From Trichosporon coremiiforme (taxonomy: Eukaryota; Basidiomycota; Tremellomycetes; Trichosporonales; Trichosporonaceae): DNA of 64,000 bases. Below, piece after piece: positions 29,526 through 51,247 of the stretch; position 1 is the first letter of the stretch, and every line of letters begins with the position of its first letter. Below the pieces are notes generated by a model that saw only the letters and a program-made list of their open reading frames with translations, did no database searches and was not told the DNA's origin. The stretch covers positions 62,001-126,000 of the forward strand of contig BCJJ01000027.1 of NCBI GenBank assembly GCA_039545355.1. Reading direction: 5' to 3'. The translations under genes were made by a program, and so were the position numbers.

Positions 29526-32500
29526 TTAGGACCTCATGCCCTTCTTTTTGTTGGTCAAGCTGACGCGGCCACCGTTCTTGCCGGCGCGCTTCGCGGCCTG
29601 GCCGATAGGAACGTACGCATAAGGGTCGACGCCGTCCTTCTTGACGTCTCCCTTTCCGCGCTTGCTGCGGAACTCCTCTCCGAGGCGGCCGATCGCCTTC
29701 TTCGTCTTCTTCTTGGCGATCTTGTCGTCGTCGACGTCCATGAGACCCTCCTCGCGCTCCTCCTCGCGGGCGCGCTTCGTGTTCTTGTTGAACTTCAGGC
29801 CGCGGTTCGTGCGGGCCGCACCTTCGATGCCGCGCATCGCCTGCAGGTAGGCGTTGCCCTCGTCCGCGCCGTCGTCCATCTGGGCATCCGAGTCGGAACC
29901 GTCGTCCTCGATGACGAGCCTGCCGCTCTTGTCCGTCTTGAAGTGCGCGGCGTCCTGGCCAGGCTTGCGCTTGCGCTGCTCCGCCTTCGGGTCGCGAGTG
30001 ACACCACCGGCGATGCTGCGAGAGAGCAGGTCCATCGGCTCGTCACCCTCATCACGGATGTACTCCGCCTCGGCAGCGGCAGCAGCTCGTCGCTGCGCAC
30101 GCTTGCCCAGGGGCTTGAGAGGGCGCTCGTCCTCGTCACCCTGCTCCTCCTCGTCGTCAGAGTCGCTGTTGTAGAGGATGTCGTCGAAGGCGTTGCCAGA
30201 AGTCGTCTTGGGCGCCTTGCTCTCCTCCTCGGCGGTCGCTTTTTTGCGCTTCGCACGGTCCTTACGCTTCTTCAGGTTCTCGATGACCTTGCGCTCGCCA
30301 CCCTCAGGGGCGAAGGAATGGACGTTCTCGTAGCCAAACTTGCGGAACATGCGCTCGAAGATATGAATCGTCTTGAGCTTGAAGTGGTTCTTCTGGTCGT
30401 GGACCCAGCCGAGGAGAGCGGGGACGAGCGCCTCGAGGTGTGGCTCGACTGTCTCCGTGGGGAGAGCGACGACAGCAACCTTGACGAAGCCGAGAGCCGA
30501 CTTGACGATCTCACGGTTCTTCGAGCCGACGAAGACAATAACGGTGGCGACGAGCTCGGAAATGAGCTCGTTCGAGATGTCGTCCCTGAACTCGAAGAGG
30601 AGGCGGGAGAGAGCGTTAATCGAGGCGGAGATCATGTGAGGGGTCGTACCAGTGAGACCGGCGGCCACCATGGTGATGTACTCCTGAGCGTTGGCGTCCA
30701 CTGTACGCTCGACGAGCTCATCGCTGTCCTCATTGACCGGGACGGCCTGCTTGACCTCTCCTCCCTCGGCCATCTTGTGGCCCATGACAACGAGGAGGTC
30801 GAAACCGGCGTCGCGAGCCTTCTCGTTGACCTCCTTGGTGCCGAGGACAGCCTCGGACAGGAGCTCCGGGATGAGATGCAGCTTGTCCTTGGGAAGCTCC
30901 TGAACGAGCGTCGAGAGAAGCTGAAGGCGGTCACGCTGGGCACCAGGGCCAACCTGAGTGGCGACCTCGTTCAGGCGCTCGACGAACTCCTGCAGCTTGT
31001 CGCCAGATCCAGCCTCGCCGAGCTTGCCAGCCTCGAGCAGGCGCTTGAGGAGACGGTAAGCCTTCTTCTGAACAGTGGCATCCTCGTGCTCGAGAAGGTC
31101 CTTGGTCGAGGTCGCAGTGAAGAGCGAGGCGCTCTGAGCCGGGGGAAGGTGGGGAACGAAGACGATCAGCAGGTCGAGCATGGTGTGGCTGATGGGAGAG
31201 GCGCCAGGGGCGGGAGCCTGCGTGTTGTCAAGGTTCTGCGAAAGGTGGGAGGCGACGGTGTTGTAGGTCTCGATGATGTCCTTCTCGTCCATGATACCGA
31301 CCCAAGCGGCGATGACGTCTCCGACCATTCCACGCTGCTCACGAGGAAGCTTAGAGAAGACGTTCAGCAGGACGGAAACCATGTCCTTGGCAAGAGACTT
31401 AAGCTTGCCGAGGTTTGCCTTGGCAGCCTCCTGGTCGATACCGAATTGCTTGCGAAGCTCAATGGGGTCAGTCGAGGAGTTCAACAGGGTCTGCGTCGAA
31501 TTGACGAGCTGCAGAAGCGAGCGGAGCAGCGGCGAGAGAAGCAGAGGCTGGGTGTAGAGAAGGTTGGTGATGAGGGAGAGGAAAGGCGTGGTGAGACCCT
31601 CCTGCATGTCGCGAGGCATCTCACAAAAGCCAGGGAGACAGTCCCAGATCTGGCCAACGAGGACCTCCCAGACCTTGGCAACGGCGACGTTTCCGGCGTC
31701 CTCAGCAGCGACCTTGCGCTCGAACAGGCGCTCAGACAGGGGTCGGAAGTAGTTGGCGAAGAACGCGAGCGAATCGTTCGTCGTCTTGTGACGGATAATG
31801 GGGAGGAGGTGAGCACGACCAGGCTGAGGAGTCTTTCCGCTCGCATCAGGCTCGATGTTGAGGGGCAGCGCACGGAGGACACCCTCGACACCGATGACCT
31901 CGACAGCGGCACCAATAACCTCGTCAACCTTGTCCTTCGCGTCGAAGCCCTTCTGCGTTCGAAGGTCTCCGACTTCAGTGATGAGAGGAAGGAGAAGCTC
32001 CTCGGCCGCGGTGGGGGCGGTTCCACTGGGGTCAACCGCGGGCTCGTCCGGCAGCAGACGGAGGCGGAGGCGGGAAATGAGGGCGGAGAGGATAGTGAAG
32101 AGGTAGCCCATGCGGAGAGCGTTCGAGTCAAGAGCCTCAGTGACGGCACCAAGAACCTTAGTAAGGAAGGGCGTCTTCTGCTTCTTCCTCGCGCCGGGGA
32201 GGTGGCTGCCGGACCGGAGATACTGGACCGCGCCGATGATCATCTCGTCGGTGACGCAGTAGCGGACAATGCCGTCGGCGATCGCTTCAGTCGCCGCCTT
32301 GCAGACCGCCGGGCTCGTCGAAGCACCGAGAAGAACATCGTTGAAGATGTAGTTGAACGCCTTCGGAAGATAAGCCGGGAGGTTCGCGGGGTCCTGCAGC
32401 GAGAGCTTGATCAGGGCGCTAGACAGAGCAGAAAGGTACGCCGGCATGTCGCCAGACTCGGGCGGCGAAGCGAGGAGCGAGTCGATGACCTTCGTAAGGT

Positions 32501-33457
32501 TTCCGATAACGTGAGGAGTCGGCGAAACCGAATCAACCGGCGGAGGGGAGAGAAGGTGCGACAGCAGAGAGTACACCTGGTTGGTGAGATGCGGGTGAGG
32601 CGGCAGAGCCATGAGGAGCTGGCAGAGCTGAGCAAGTTGCTGGGTCGTTAGTGAAGGCTCATTCGATTCTAGCTCACCTCAGTTCCCCATACAGCAACCC
32701 ATCCCCTCAGTCCCTGAACAACGTGGATAGCCTTCTTGCCTTCGTCCTCATCGTTGCCGGCGAACCTGGCCTTCTTCTTGCTGCTCTTCCCCTTGACCTC
32801 CTCCTCAAGTGCCGACGTGACCCACTCGCGAGCACGGGGAAGGTACGGGTGCGCTCCCGGAACCACGCGAGGGGGAACAGGGGTGCACAGAACCTTCCGG
32901 ACGCCCTCCTGCGCGAGGTGACGGACCTTGGGTCGCGGATCCAGACACAGCTCGAGAACGTAGTTCCAAGCCTTCTTGAGGAGGGGGCTGGAAAGCGACG
33001 TCGGCGTGGCGAAGAGAAAAAGGGAGGTGGCGATTTGGAGAAGACTTCGGAGTGCAGGGGGGTGAGCAAGAGCGGTGCTGAAGAGGGGGAGGAGACATCC
33101 AAGGAGCGGGCTGAGCTTGGCGAGAACGACGCTGGGCGGTGTCTCGGGTACGACGATCGCAAGGAGGTAGAGCGTGGCGGGGATGAGGTCGCCGCCGTCC
33201 ATCTTCTCGGTCTCAGAGATCTCCTCTCCCGTCTCTCCCGGAGCAATCTCATCAGAGCAGGCCTTCTCGAGGCACTGGAGCAGCGCGGTGAAGTATGCGG
33301 TCGAAGTATGCGGAAGGGTCGACTTGGGCAGAGTCGAAGAGATAGTTGATTCGATGGCCATCAAAAGCTGAGCAGGCTTCGCCTGGTGCGCCTGCCCAGA
33401 CGCAGAGAGGCGTCGCACATTGGCGAGCTGCGTTCCGAAGGACGCTGGTGTCGCCAT
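29526..33457 (-). CDS. RRP12: Ribosome-biogenesis factor Rrp12 (HEAT-repeat/NUC173 protein)
   Basis: Two exons (33457-32678 and 32639-29526) joined by a 38-nt intron give about 1297 residues, the size expected for Rrp12. The N-terminal half is a helical HEAT-repeat array (LSASGQAHQAKPAQLLMAIE, SSPLLKKAWNYVLELCLDPR, VRHLAQEGVRKVL). The middle contains NUC173-like sequence (RPLSERLFERKVAAEDAGNV, VGQIWDCLPGFCEMP). The C-terminal 250 residues are highly charged and Lys/Arg-rich (LKKRKDRAKRKKATAEEESK, acidic DSDDEEEQGDEDE, final LTNKKKGMRS), matching the nucleolar tail. Rrp12 works with Ran in export and maturation of both ribosomal subunits. The opposite strand is also open for 902 codons, an artefact of GC-rich third positions. 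Confidence 0.93.
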
Positions 33458-33767
33458 GGTGTCGTTTAGATGCTGTTGTCAACGCTGCGAGCTGCGATCG
33501 CCGCACTGAAACCTTGGTGGTCATGACGAACTTCAAAATCTCGGTGACTCACGTGACCGTACCTCCACTCCACGCGACAAAGAGTCCGCGCCACCGGGTG
33601 GCAAACGGTGCCTGGAATGAGTCGCGGCGGAACTAAATCGAAAACCGCGTCGGTCTCTACGCGATGTGAATAACAACAAACCTTCGCACCCCGCGAAGCC
33701 AACATCCTTTGAATCTCGATTTCTCGTGCAGAAGAGCTCCCCGAGCTCCGAAAATCCAAAAATAAGT
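33458..33767. other. Promoter region of RRP12
   Basis: 310 bp upstream of RRP12 up to the 3' end of tRNA-Gly. It holds an 8-bp palindrome TCACGTGA at 33549-33556, a Cbf1-type E-box. The T-run that should terminate the tRNA lies at about 33757-33763. Confidence 0.55.
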
Positions 33768-33844
33768 ACATCCAGGGGGAATCGAACCCCCACCGCATCG
33801 AGACTGCGTGGCAACGATGCATGATACCATTTCACCATAGATGT
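33768..33844 (-). tRNA. tRNA-Gly (GCC) with a 7-nt intron
   Basis: On the minus strand the acceptor stem ACATCTA pairs with TGGATGT. The D-arm GTGA/TCAT pairs and contains GG. The anticodon stem CATCG/CGATG encloses TTGCCA, a roughly 7-nt intron and the last loop base, giving anticodon GCC. The variable loop is CGGT. The T-arm GGGGG-TTCGATT-CCCCC is perfect, and a T5 terminator follows. The first pair is A1-T72 rather than the usual G1-C72 of glycine tRNAs, which is odd. All arms pair, so a functional gene is likely. Confidence 0.88.
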
Positions 33845-33943
33845 GAGGACGATTGTGAACCACTTCACCATCGCTGCCGCGCTGGCCGGTTCTTCCTTGA
33901 CAGCCGGGTGTCAGCTTTTGAGGCTGGCTGATATCGAGCGATC

Positions 33944-34112
33944 TGTTGAAGTCTGGGTCGCTTGATGCGCGAGTAACGAGGTTACTGGCAGCACGACCTA
34001 GACGGGACTGATCAATTGGTTGGGAGGTGAATGCATAAAATGGCCAGGAGGCCGTCTATATACAATAAGGCGGTGACGACGTGGCAGGCAAGAAATCACG
34101 TGATTTCCAACA
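33944..34112. mobile_element. Solo LTR (short copy) near tRNA-Gly
   Basis: This 169-bp element starts TGTTG and ends CAACA (inverted LTR termini) and is flanked on both sides by the 6-bp duplication GCGATC (33938-33943 and 34113-34118). Its sequence aligns along most of its length with the element at 35336-35618, sharing blocks such as ACTGATC-ATTG, TGGCCAGG, GGCCGT-TATATA and AATCACGTG. A TATATA may be the LTR promoter. It lies 99 bp upstream of the tRNA-Gly 5' end. No internal retrotransposon coding sequence remains. Compared with the other copy it lacks about 110 bp in the middle. Confidence 0.88.
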
Positions 34113-34118
34113 GCGATC

Positions 34119-35189
34119 GTAGGGCAGCGCGATAGCTGCGACCGGGTGGCAATATGATAATTGCCACCGGTGGGATGATGATATTATGAGAGGTGAATGG
34201 TGTGGATGCATAGAGCTCATACTGATGTATATATGTCACAAGAACAGCATGAGAACAGCGTGTAGGCTGCCTGACGCTCGGGCCACACTACAAACAATGG
34301 AACAATAGAACAATGGAGGGTGAACCTCCACTCGAGCATGTCGTTTTCCAACATCCGGGCGTGAGTGCCCCGATAAACCTACGTTTCTTCCGACTGAAGT
34401 CGCTCTCCTGCATGCCAGCTGCGCCAGGTATGTATCATGGGGTTCACAGAAGACACCCGAGACTGGTTTTACTTGTTCCAATGCCCATCATCGCTTGAGG
34501 AGCTCGCACCATTGTGCGTGTCACAATGGACGGCCGGCTCGCTGTCCCTCGGGCGGTTCACTTCGCCGACACGGGGATGGCTTCGCGGTATGACTTTGTC
34601 TTCAGTGACCGCTCTGACTTACCCTTGGAGACTCAACAGTGACGAATGTTTATAATCGGGCATCTTGGCAGCCGGCTATGATGTCCGAACGTGTAAACGT
34701 CTCGACTGCCTGCTACGTGTGGTCTCGCGGCTGTGGGCCAATCGACCTGGGAATCCTCTCGAGATATCGCTGTCGGGTATCCCTTGGCTATATCTACATG
34801 ATGTCTCGGGTGAGAGATAGGGTTCGAGTTCCGGGCAGCTAGGCATGCTTTCCCGGATCGCGACGAGCCACCTCCACCTTCAGAAGGGGTTTAAGAAGCC
34901 GAGTGTACGTAGTCAATCATTCCGGTGCTGCCCTGCCAGTCACTGCTCCTGCCATTGAGCTCATTCGGAAATGCGGAACTGTTAGCTTACTAACAACTCT
35001 GAAGTTACTCTGCGCACGTCGCACGCTGGGCGCGAAGTGCCACATTCCTGGGAGCTGTCCAACAGACCGACGATCAGACATGCAAACCCTCATCTCATCC
35101 GCAAGCGCCACTACCTACTTCCAGCAGCAAAAGAGAACGTTCCTACCTCGCTAACAGCTCAGAGAATCGCGAAAAAGGTAACGCTAGAT
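34119..35189. other. Non-coding region between tRNA-Gly/LTR and tRNA-Thr
   Basis: About 1.1 kb with no supportable gene. It contains a strong hairpin around 34142-34169 (GGTGGCAAT then ATTGCCACC with a 6-nt loop) and several near-palindromic AT-richer stretches. A lone TTCGAGT near 34824 resembles a tRNA T-loop, but no tRNA folds around it. Confidence 0.5.
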
Positions 35190-35279
35190 GCCTTCTACCC
35201 GAATCGAACGGGTGACCGTTCCATAGTCCGATGATACATCGCTACTAGTGGAAAATTCTAGCCACTGAACTAAGAAGGC
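35190..35279 (-). tRNA. tRNA-Thr (AGT) with an 18-nt intron
   Basis: On the minus strand the acceptor stem GCCTTCT pairs with AGAAGGC. The D-arm GTTC/GAAT encloses GTGGCTA. The anticodon stem TTCCA/TGGAA closes the loop CTAGTA plus intron plus A, giving anticodon AGT. The intron is 18 nt and sits directly 3' of position 37. The T-arm ACCCG-TTCGATT-CGGGT is perfect. A T5 run follows the 3' end. Confidence 0.9.
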
Positions 35280-35335
35280 GAAGCTGTCTACCAACCCTCT
35301 CCGACGGTGACGTCAGGCTGCCTCCCTGGGCTCGC

Positions 35336-35618
35336 TGTTGGAACCTAAGTCGCTGGATGCATGAGTAAAGATGTGACTCGCAGCGCGACTAGACAGAACT
35401 GATCGATTGAGTTGGGGTTGCATAGGGTGGCCAGGCGGCCGTTTATATATTTGCAGGCAGCTAGAGAACAAAAGGGCCAGCTTCAGGCTGTCGGAAAGCG
35501 CCAGGGACACCGAGAATGTGTGTAAGAAGCATGTCTCCAACGACAACAACAGAACGTCAAAACGGGGGGTGCTGCCGAGCATCGGGGTGACAGGCAAGGA
35601 ATCACGTGGATTCCAACA
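35336..35618. mobile_element. Solo LTR (long copy) near tRNA-Thr
   Basis: This 283-bp element begins TGTTG and ends CAACA, and is flanked by perfect 6-bp duplications GCTCGC (35330-35335 and 35619-35624). It begins 56 bp upstream of the tRNA-Thr 5' end. It aligns with the 169-bp element near tRNA-Gly at both ends and has extra internal sequence after TATATA. Intact termini and target duplication show a genuine retroelement insertion reduced to a solo LTR by recombination. Integration upstream of a Pol III gene is the habit of Ty1- and Ty3-like elements; which superfamily cannot be told without internal sequence. Confidence 0.9.
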
Positions 35619-35624
35619 GCTCGC

Positions 35625-50505: not shown

Positions 50506-50714
50506 ACGTTGGCGTGCGCGCTAGGGCGCCGTCATGTCAAGTTATATCCATCAGTTACTATGTATATCAGCACCATTTGCATTGCACTTCCTCAGCTGCA
50601 CTACTAATCGCCCCTGCCCTCTCACAGACGCACGCCCGCTGACTTTCCCCCTGACATCCCTGAAGCGAAAGAACATGCTTGGGCTGCAGGAGAGGGGCCA
50701 AAGAAGCCAAAAAG

Positions 50715-50822
50715 TCTCACCACTGTGAGTCGAACACAGGACCTGCGGATGAACTCGCCTGTTCAGGCGGCTTTGGAGTTACCAATTACAGTCCGACGCT
50801 CTACCAACTGAGCTATGGTGAG
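50715..50822 (-). tRNA. tRNA-Tyr (GTA) with a ~35-nt intron, copy 1
   Basis: On the minus strand the acceptor stem CTCACCA pairs with TGGTGAG, with the C1-G72 pair characteristic of eukaryotic tRNA-Tyr. The D-arm GCTC/GAGC contains GGTA. The anticodon loop reads CTGTAA followed by an intron that includes a short hairpin (CGCCTG/CAGGCG). The T-arm CTGTG-TTCGACT-CACAG is perfect. A T5 terminator directly follows the 3' end. Confidence 0.92.
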
Positions 50823-51137
50823 GAAGCTGTTGTTGACGAGAGCTCTCCGCCCCCGCTCGGCCCCGAGCGGCCGCGGGCCAACGTCTGCATGGAAGATCGT
50901 GTCTTCAGCGGTTCCCAAGCGCAGTGAGCACCTTCGGAGCTTTCTGTAGACGAAGAGAAGGCAAAGCGTAGATTGTGGCAGGATCAGCGCTTGTGAGGGG
51001 AGAAGGGTGTTGCGTGCATTGGCGCACGGGAGCAAAAAATCGGCCCACCCTTCTCCAACGGCCTCCAACAGCTCCACTCAAATGGCTAGAGCAGACCAAA
51101 AGAAAGAGCCTGCACAGGGTAGATGAAAAAAGGATTG
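50823..51137. other. Spacer between the two tRNA-Tyr genes
   Basis: 315 bp holding the 5' flank of the first tRNA-Tyr and the terminator (A6 on the plus strand at about 51126-51131) of the second. No LTR or gene is seen. Confidence 0.55.
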
Positions 51138-51247
51138 TCTCTCCACTGTGAGTCGAACACAGGACCTGCGGATTTCTCACTCTATCGAGTGGGAGGATTT
51201 GGATAACCAATTACAGTCCGACGCTCTACCAACTGAGCTATAGAGAG
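51138..51247 (-). tRNA. tRNA-Tyr (GTA) with a ~37-nt intron, copy 2
   Basis: Same architecture as copy 1: acceptor stem CTCTCTA with TGGAGAG, identical D-arm, anticodon stem and T-arm, anticodon GTA. Its intron is different in sequence from copy 1 but also forms a small hairpin (CACTC/GAGTG). The fourth acceptor pair is changed in both strands (T-A instead of A-T), so pairing is preserved. A run of Ts follows within 12 nt. Confidence 0.92.

Follow-up and report, generated by a model that had tools for sequence, protein, structure and literature searches.

Insertion beside tRNA genes has arisen repeatedly among retrotransposons. The Saccharomyces elements Ty1, Ty2, and Ty4 have left many solo long terminal repeats (LTRs), which start with TGTTGGAA as do the elements described here, and Ty1 creates a target-site duplication (TSD) of 5 bp. 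In the portion of a review table of tRNA-gene targeters cited here (PMC5911963), the copia-type targeters Ty1, Ty2, and Ty4 use windows of ~1 kb, narrow targeting is found only in Ty3-type or L1-type elements, and no basidiomycete is listed. The Ty3-gypsy targeters covered there insert at the start site or up to 10 bp away from it, or else 6–33 bp from the gene, and DGLT-A does so in either orientation. Excerpts of a second paper give a window of ~750 bp for resident Ty1–Ty4 and place >95% of Tcn1–6 copies of the basidiomycete Cryptococcus neoformans at centromeres (PMC7175516). Here, we describe LTRs upstream of tRNA genes in Trichosporon coremiiforme, starting from two elements, E1 and E2, in a window of 64,000 nt (contig BCJJ01000027.1, positions 62,001 to 126,000). 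The genome searched comprises 42.0 Mb in 134 contigs, written C1, C2, and so on, the window being C27:62001–126000. It is very likely that E1, E2, and an older copy, L, are solo LTRs of a copia-type LTR retrotransposon lineage that inserts 5′ of tRNA genes at a set distance.

Like Ty1, Ty2, and Ty4, these elements are copia-type and lie upstream of tRNA genes. Unlike them, they occupy two positions, each with a standard deviation (SD) of 2–3 bp, have a 6-bp TSD, and carry a primer-binding site (PBS) for half of tRNA-Lys rather than for the 3′ end of tRNA-iMet. Narrow, position-specific insertion 5′ of tRNA genes is shared with Ty3, Tj1, Tyl3/6, Ylt1, DGLT-A, and beta/Tca8, but copia-type domains and a main slot ~48–66 bp from the gene, with positions at ~54 and 66 bp, set the elements apart from Ty3-type targeting. 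They differ also from TRE5 and NLTR-B, the L1-type elements of dictyostelids, which are non-LTR and have neither LTRs nor a PBS. An initial annotation of the window had drawn an analogy with Ty1, Ty3, and TRE elements. It holds for targeting of the 5′ flank of genes transcribed by RNA polymerase III (Pol III), but the affinity is to copia and the precision is in the style of Ty3 or TRE5, not the broad window of Ty1.

LTRs in the window and their tRNA genes

E1 and E2, read in the initial annotation as solo LTRs with perfect 6-bp flanking repeats 99 bp 5′ of tRNA-Gly and 56 bp 5′ of tRNA-Thr, were confirmed with those repeats and distances. Both are bounded by TGTTG...CAACA, and the solo-LTR reading is supported by related copies with a PBS, a polypurine tract (PPT), and paired LTRs. 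The features of the region are as follows, with the strand in parentheses where one applies.

33766–33844 (−): tRNA-Gly(GCC) gene with a 7-nt intron, target gene; ARAGORN with introns, and Rfam RF00005 at 53 bits over 33767–33844
33909–33943 (−): older LTR L, true 3′ part, ending ..AAAAGCTGACA and containing the left TSD copy of E1; from LTR matches
33938–33943: E1 TSD GCGATC, copy 1, inside L; from the sequence
33944–34112 (−): E1, a 169-bp LTR nested in L; seven genome copies, E1 itself included, at 95–100%
34113–34118: E1 TSD GCGATC, copy 2; from the sequence
34119–34353 (−): remainder of L, with its true 5′ end TGTTGGAAAACG at 34353; all 235 bases recur at 97% in three other places
35189–35279 (−): tRNA-Thr(AGT) gene with an 18-nt intron, target gene; ARAGORN with introns
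35330–35335: E2 TSD GCTCGC, copy 1; from the sequence
35336–35618 (−): E2, a 283-bp solo LTR; of the 58 genome matches listed, 48 reach E ≤ 5e-10
35619–35624: E2 TSD GCTCGC, copy 2; from the sequence

The tRNA-Thr gene was reported neither by Rfam nor by one earlier ARAGORN run, and the Rfam miss is presumably owed to its intron. E1 and E2 are 77% identical over 120 aligned columns at their start and 87.5% identical over their last 32 bases, and the PBS and PPT of related copies place the true 5′-to-3′ orientation of both on the minus strand.

The earlier reading had missed that E1 interrupts the older LTR L. Rejoined across E1 with a single TSD copy, L measures 270 bp, and a 268-base version of it matches two other copies end to end at 97–98%. 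As the edge of L sits 64 bp from tRNA-Gly, the odd 99-bp distance of E1 is explained by its nesting in L. The outer flanks of L, GCCGGG and TCCGGG, match at five of six bases. For L, a TSD of 5 bp is also conceivable: among four copies, a 5-bp duplication suits one, a 6-bp duplication with a single mismatch suits two, and neither suits the fourth, which has diverged. A related L-type end at C28:240300–242111 is followed directly by the PBS.

Copies across the genome and their spacing to tRNA genes

Nucleotide searches with both elements found related LTRs across the genome; the queries were E1, E2, two further types (C and D), the internal region, and L. LTR lengths are 169 bp (E1), ~283 bp (E2), ~345 bp (C), ~390 bp (D), and 70 bp (type M). 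Copy counts are lower bounds, with the E2, C, and D searches having scored the best 40 of 71, 72, and 60 candidates, respectively. The E1 search gave 29 matches, 21 of them with E below 1e-7, and the E2 search at least 58, at least 48 with E ≤ 5e-10, some being two pieces of one copy. Subfamily C has at least 22 copies including the query (95–100% over 343–345 bases), subfamily D at least five near-full-length copies (92–100% identity), and L four full matches of its 235-base query (97–100%). D-type LTRs carry a short tandem repeat (around GAAGGTGTCGGAGACACTGA in stretch L020, and also in stretch L043) and vary in length from 312 to 561 bp. An apparent LTR pair at C21:332506/334074 was rejected as an assembly duplication around a 100-N gap. 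At C21:332200–334700, a stretch of at least ~0.6 kb, made up of flanking sequence and part of a C-type LTR, is doubled across that gap at an offset of 1.46 kb, and the end of a ribosomal-protein-like gene (uL2-like by eye) lies between the duplicated stretches.

Among 111 candidate boundary pairs, 50 had the identical 6-mer on either side and 12 had a 6-mer pair with one mismatch. When the right-hand 6-mer was moved by 1–10 bases as a control, only 1 of 1110 comparisons was identical, so the TSDs are not due to chance. Across 44 distinct target sites there was no strong TSD consensus, the commonest feature being G at position 5 (23 of 44).

Spacing was tabulated from family matches of at least 34 bits, merged in 259,908 bases read, with the gap measured to the 5′ end of the closest tRNA gene that has the piece on its 5′ side; 24 of the stretches read extend ~300 bp past the match on each side. 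These counts leave out the L matches C30:144900, C10:271080, C1:1042859, and C3:241 and the protein matches C21:238328, C5:240024, and C3:519154, and SeC, '???', Met, and similar ARAGORN labels are unreliable. The copies proved to be concentrated 5′ of tRNA genes, which supports the earlier suggestion of a retrotransposon family with tRNA-upstream targeting. Merging gave 93 LTR pieces. For 75 of them, a tRNA gene starts within 100 bp, with the LTR on its 5′ side; the gap is 40–72 bp for 62, 13–39 bp for 8, and 81–98 bp for 5. The other 18 were sorted by judgement into eight distal parts of composites, one assembly duplicate, one 24-bp match, and eight exceptions, which leaves 75 of 83 curated loci within 100 bp. 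Around five loci with no tRNA call nearby, a search out to 500 bp turned up no B-box-like site. Insertion concentrated at a defined position near Pol III genes is what characterizes a tRNA-gene-targeted retrotransposon, and with 62 of 93 pieces at 40–72 bp the family shows this feature. The random expectation at 40–75 bp is ~0.09 of 82 insertions, even if all 1238 tRNA candidates are real. Among 63 tRNA genes chosen regardless of LTRs, seven had a family array within 110 bp upstream. Orientation relative to the tRNA gene was the same in 35 cases and opposite in 30 (candidates at 45–72 bp, a few overlapping).

The 62 spacings are bimodal, with positions at 54.2 bp (SD 2.8, weight 0.67) and 66.2 bp (SD 2.4, weight 0.33) from the mature tRNA 5′ end. 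In mixture models, the Bayesian information criterion was 392.5 for two positions, 410.7 for one, and 392.3 for three, the last bringing no real gain, and spacings of 58–63 bp made up 7 of 61 (binomial p 0.012 versus a uniform spread). Their separation of 12 bp, about one turn of the helix, suggests that the target is reached from a single face of the DNA. Spacings also ran by tRNA type, at 64–67 bp for Gly(GCC) and 48–56 bp for Ile(AAT) and Arg(ACG), a link that is suggestive only, with 296 of 10000 permutations giving a within-isotype spread at or below that observed. L matches are present in six of the eight arrays ending 13–39 bp from a tRNA gene, and L-type copies or remnants may lie nearer to it.

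The slot is used again by later insertions, and LTRs pile up there as a result, in some cases at the identical 6 bp. The order at C5:293987–294506 is TSD-E1-TSD-C-TSD, with ATAACT present three times; GATGGT is likewise found three times at C3:1027698–1028218, and CCTTTA three times at C19:268155–268560. A U2 snRNA gene (C5:294892–295078; stretch L002, 2055–2241) lies ~220 bp downstream of a tRNA-Pro gene with stacked upstream LTRs. Other copies have unequal LTRs. The element at C3:293033–293595 (stretch L048, C3:292514–295749) consists of a D-type 5′ LTR of 312 bp, an internal part of 184 bp, and an M-type 3′ LTR of ~70 bp, with CGCATC on both sides, and elements on C25 and C28 have an L-like 5′ LTR and a short M-like 3′ LTR. 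Such unequal LTRs could stem from recombination of stacked elements through their common internal part.

Paired-LTR copies, primer-binding sites, and a putative autonomous driver

The full-length members that the initial annotation expected elsewhere in the genome exist as paired-LTR copies with such ends, but those found are non-autonomous, being either Gag-protease-RNase H elements or terminal-repeat retrotransposons in miniature (TRIMs). The M type occurs as direct-repeat pairs. The 326 bp at C6:430723–431048 comprise an LTR, the PBS, an internal part (186 bp including the PBS and the purine tract GAGGGGAG), and a second LTR; the 70-bp LTRs differ by one mismatch, the TSD is GCCCCG, and a tRNA-Ala gene lies 61 bp away. 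Short and noncoding, with LTRs, PBS, and PPT, this copy is a TRIM. On C13, two TRIM units stand in tandem with common LTRs and an outer TSD of ACTGCC, and in a further copy, at C3:41234–41633, the outer flanks agree over just 5 bp (by eye). Sharing of LTRs in tandem, as here, is known from TRIMs. Like TRIMs, the short copies are non-autonomous and run LTR-PBS-short noncoding internal part-PPT-LTR; unlike them, they have an LTR of only 70 bp and a whole length of 326 bp, and lie beside tRNA genes. The portion cited here of a paper reporting fungal TRIMs mentions no tRNA targeting (PMC5689174).

A 3.8-kb element at C5:480856–484654 has identical 70-bp outer LTRs, the TSD GGGCCG, and an unbroken open reading frame (ORF) of 867 aa, and lies 55 bp from a tRNA gene labelled Ala. 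A Pfam scan of 775 of the 867 residues gave Retrotran_gag_2 (43.9 bits) and Pol_BBD (33.5 bits), both above cut-off, and the ORF end (C5:481573–482364) matches residues 1087–1339 of the copia polyprotein P0001 at 38%, indicating a copia-type C-terminal RNase H. The same two Pfam domains occur in a second, diverged gag-protease ORF of 643 aa at C25:81751–83679, which has an M-like 3′ LTR. Copia-type Gag and protease-region domains, joined in the C5 element by a copia-type RNase H, assign these proteins to Ty1-copia, and the paired LTRs with TSD, the PBS at the 5′ LTR, and the PPT at the 3′ LTR identify the C6 TRIM and the C5 element as LTR retrotransposons. The C5 element (stretches L063/L086) also encloses a C-type LTR between purine tract and PBS, as if common to two elements, while its outer LTRs and TSD resemble one insertion. 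The tRNA-Lys PBS directly adjoins C, D, and M in copies of each, and the purine tract adjoins C and M. The longer types are therefore LTRs too; E1 would be one by homology only.

The PBS in TRIM, D, and C copies, GATTAAGAGTCACACTATCT, is complementary to nt 21–40 (20 nt) of spliced tRNA-Lys(CUU). Exon 1 of this tRNA ends at nt 37, and the pairing therefore spans the splice junction. A shorter match of 14 nt (27–40) is found at the 5′ PBS of the C5 element and in the C25 and C28 elements. Apparent TTAATC target repeats were rejected because they are the PBS. Drosophila copia is primed by tRNA-iMet. Half-tRNA priming is described for Drosophila copia, and internal cleavage of tRNA-iMet for Ty5, in the part of a paper cited here (PMC5371799); unlike in copia and Ty5, the primer here is tRNA-Lys(CUU), with pairing across the splice junction. 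From C3:354129 onward (stretch L042), internal-like sequence beside an E2-like LTR includes a broken stretch resembling the host gene ANAPC5 (PF12862, 26.4 bits), which may be captured host sequence or a neighboring pseudogene.

No autonomous copy was found in the assembly, and no integrase or reverse transcriptase (RT) match was reported for the paired-LTR C5 element. Protein searches of the genome hit 10 places with the C5 ORF and 11 with the full copia polyprotein. RT-region matches were at C10:821299 and on C7, C20, and C134. The integrase region was matched in two places only, by a Ty3-type integrase where C2 begins and, weakly, at C3:519154 (E 0.046). Profile scans of the genome gave four places for PF07727 and reported nothing for PF00078 or PF00665, the last a weak negative because it missed the Ty3-type integrase on C2, where PF00665 (rve) scores 16.6 bits. 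The integrase at that contig start (C2:37–1380; stretch L093) is Ty3-type and has a zinc-binding domain, a Tf2-1-like SH3 domain, and a chromo domain. Contig C5 terminates in internal-type sequence preceded by an M LTR and PBS, and the assembly may hide an autonomous copy. E1 and C copies are up to 99–100% alike, which suggests recent activity of the driver.

Two ORFs that closely resemble each other, of 1111 aa at C20:413373–417035 (stretch L053) and 1108 aa at C7:1242460–1245870 (stretch L054), have a copia-type Gag, as a scan of the C20 copy showed, a weak RVT_2 match, and motifs that look knuckle-like by eye, with no integrase match and no LTRs seen. These copia-like ORFs were rejected as the source, since the 9.9 kb around each held no self-repeat, tRNA gene, or E1, E2, C, D, or M match; they are possibly domesticated genes.

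Elsewhere in the window, an RRP12-like protein is encoded at 29529–32612 (−), with 72–74% identity to Vanrija, Cutaneotrichosporon, and Apiotrichum proteins and 93% to an unnamed protein. Two tRNA-like genes, 84% alike, lie at 50714–50822 and 51137–51247. ARAGORN labelled them Tyr(gta)/Gly(ccc), and the long variable arms drawn for them make these labels doubtful.

Alternative explanations and significance

Several observations weigh against a targeted copia-type lineage. The protein searches found no integrase of the LTR lineage, so that the targeting protein is inferred and unseen, and the RT-like matches are unlinked to family LTRs in the stretches read. For eight of the 83 curated loci, the sequence read shows no tRNA gene within 100 bp (C5:292160, C10:356993, C5:1886345, C10:830017, C21:550010, C28:184695, C2:67336, and C2:71310, the last with one flank only). 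The arrays ending at 13–39 bp (eight) and 81–98 bp (five) mean that the slot is not the sole one, and the 54/66 split might partly reflect tRNA gene type. Finally, 49 of the 111 candidate boundary pairs lack a duplication within one mismatch; these include wrong, overlapping, and old boundaries.

Short elements with TG..CA ends of a few bp of inverted similarity, 6-bp TSDs, and mostly solitary copies could be miniature inverted-repeat transposable elements, that is, DNA transposons with 6-bp duplications favoring tRNA genes, of which Dada-type transposons are an example. Yet C, D, and M run directly into the tRNA-Lys PBS, C and M are directly preceded by the purine tract, M forms direct-repeat pairs around an internal region with outer TSDs, and one paired element encodes a copia-type Gag and RNase H end. 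On these grounds, and with no search made for a transposase, we regard a DNA-transposon origin as highly improbable, the argument reaching E1 through homology only. Purging of untargeted insertions, with harmless tRNA-upstream copies surviving, is plausible in principle and would suit the finding that nearly all copies are solo LTRs, but selection near tRNA genes would not give two sharp positions with SDs of 2–3 bp, nor does it fit stacked copies that reuse the same 6 bp with three identical TSDs at each of the three loci above; it, too, is very improbable. The clustered, multi-copy nature of many tRNA genes raises the further prospect that they were duplicated together with an already adjoining LTR. 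With 44 distinct target sites, 34 ARAGORN tRNA labels among the 75 near pieces, different LTR subfamilies, and both orientations, we give this the least credence.

A more serious alternative, though still an unlikely one, is that a determinant other than the Pol III factors fixes the spacing, such as a nucleosome, or the edge of one, positioned upstream. The 12-bp step between the two positions and the five further arrays at 81–98 bp would be compatible with this, and Ty1 enters nucleosomes upstream of tRNA genes according to the part of the review cited (PMC5911963). Set against it, the spread at each position is 2–3 bp, the main positions lie within ~70 bp of the gene, nearer than the Ty1 window, and the geometry is similar to that of TRE5 (40–54 bp), for which the same excerpt lists an ORF1-TFIIIB interaction (PMC5911963). 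As the main slot, with its target 6-mer ~49–54 bp upstream, is closest to that published case, we lean toward TFIIIB as the tether, with about as much confidence for it as against it. Some tRNA types favor one position, which a TFIIIB model would have to explain.

We think it fairly probable that narrow tRNA-upstream targeting, at two positions one helical turn apart, arose in a basidiomycete copia-type lineage independently of Ty1 and Ty3, and that this lineage is primed by the 5′ half of spliced tRNA-Lys(CUU) and mobilizes, in trans and into one slot, both a Gag-protease-RNase H element and a 326-bp TRIM with 70-bp LTRs. Repeated use of single 6-bp sites would then build tandem and unequal-LTR arrays. 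For this targeted copia-type lineage, RNA would be reverse-transcribed from the half-tRNA-Lys primer, and Pol III initiation factors, TFIIIB being the likeliest, would tether an integrase that an autonomous relative provides in trans. This integrase would cut just upstream of the TFIIIB footprint. LTR-LTR recombination would afterwards leave solo LTRs.

We found no report in the open-licence papers searched of such an element in Trichosporonales or other basidiomycetes. Among the Trichosporonales species studied in a paper cited here in part (PMC12820176), tRNA genes number 51–1455 and tRNA content correlates with transposable element (TE) content; the words retrotransposon and LTR are absent from its main text. 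The LTR family upstream of tRNA genes is a candidate link for that correlation. As a copia-type case fixed to 2–3 bp, in a phylum absent from the review table as excerpted (PMC5911963), it would also offer an independent test of how the insertion point is controlled, and its natural copies are numerous enough for insertion geometry to be read without experiment.

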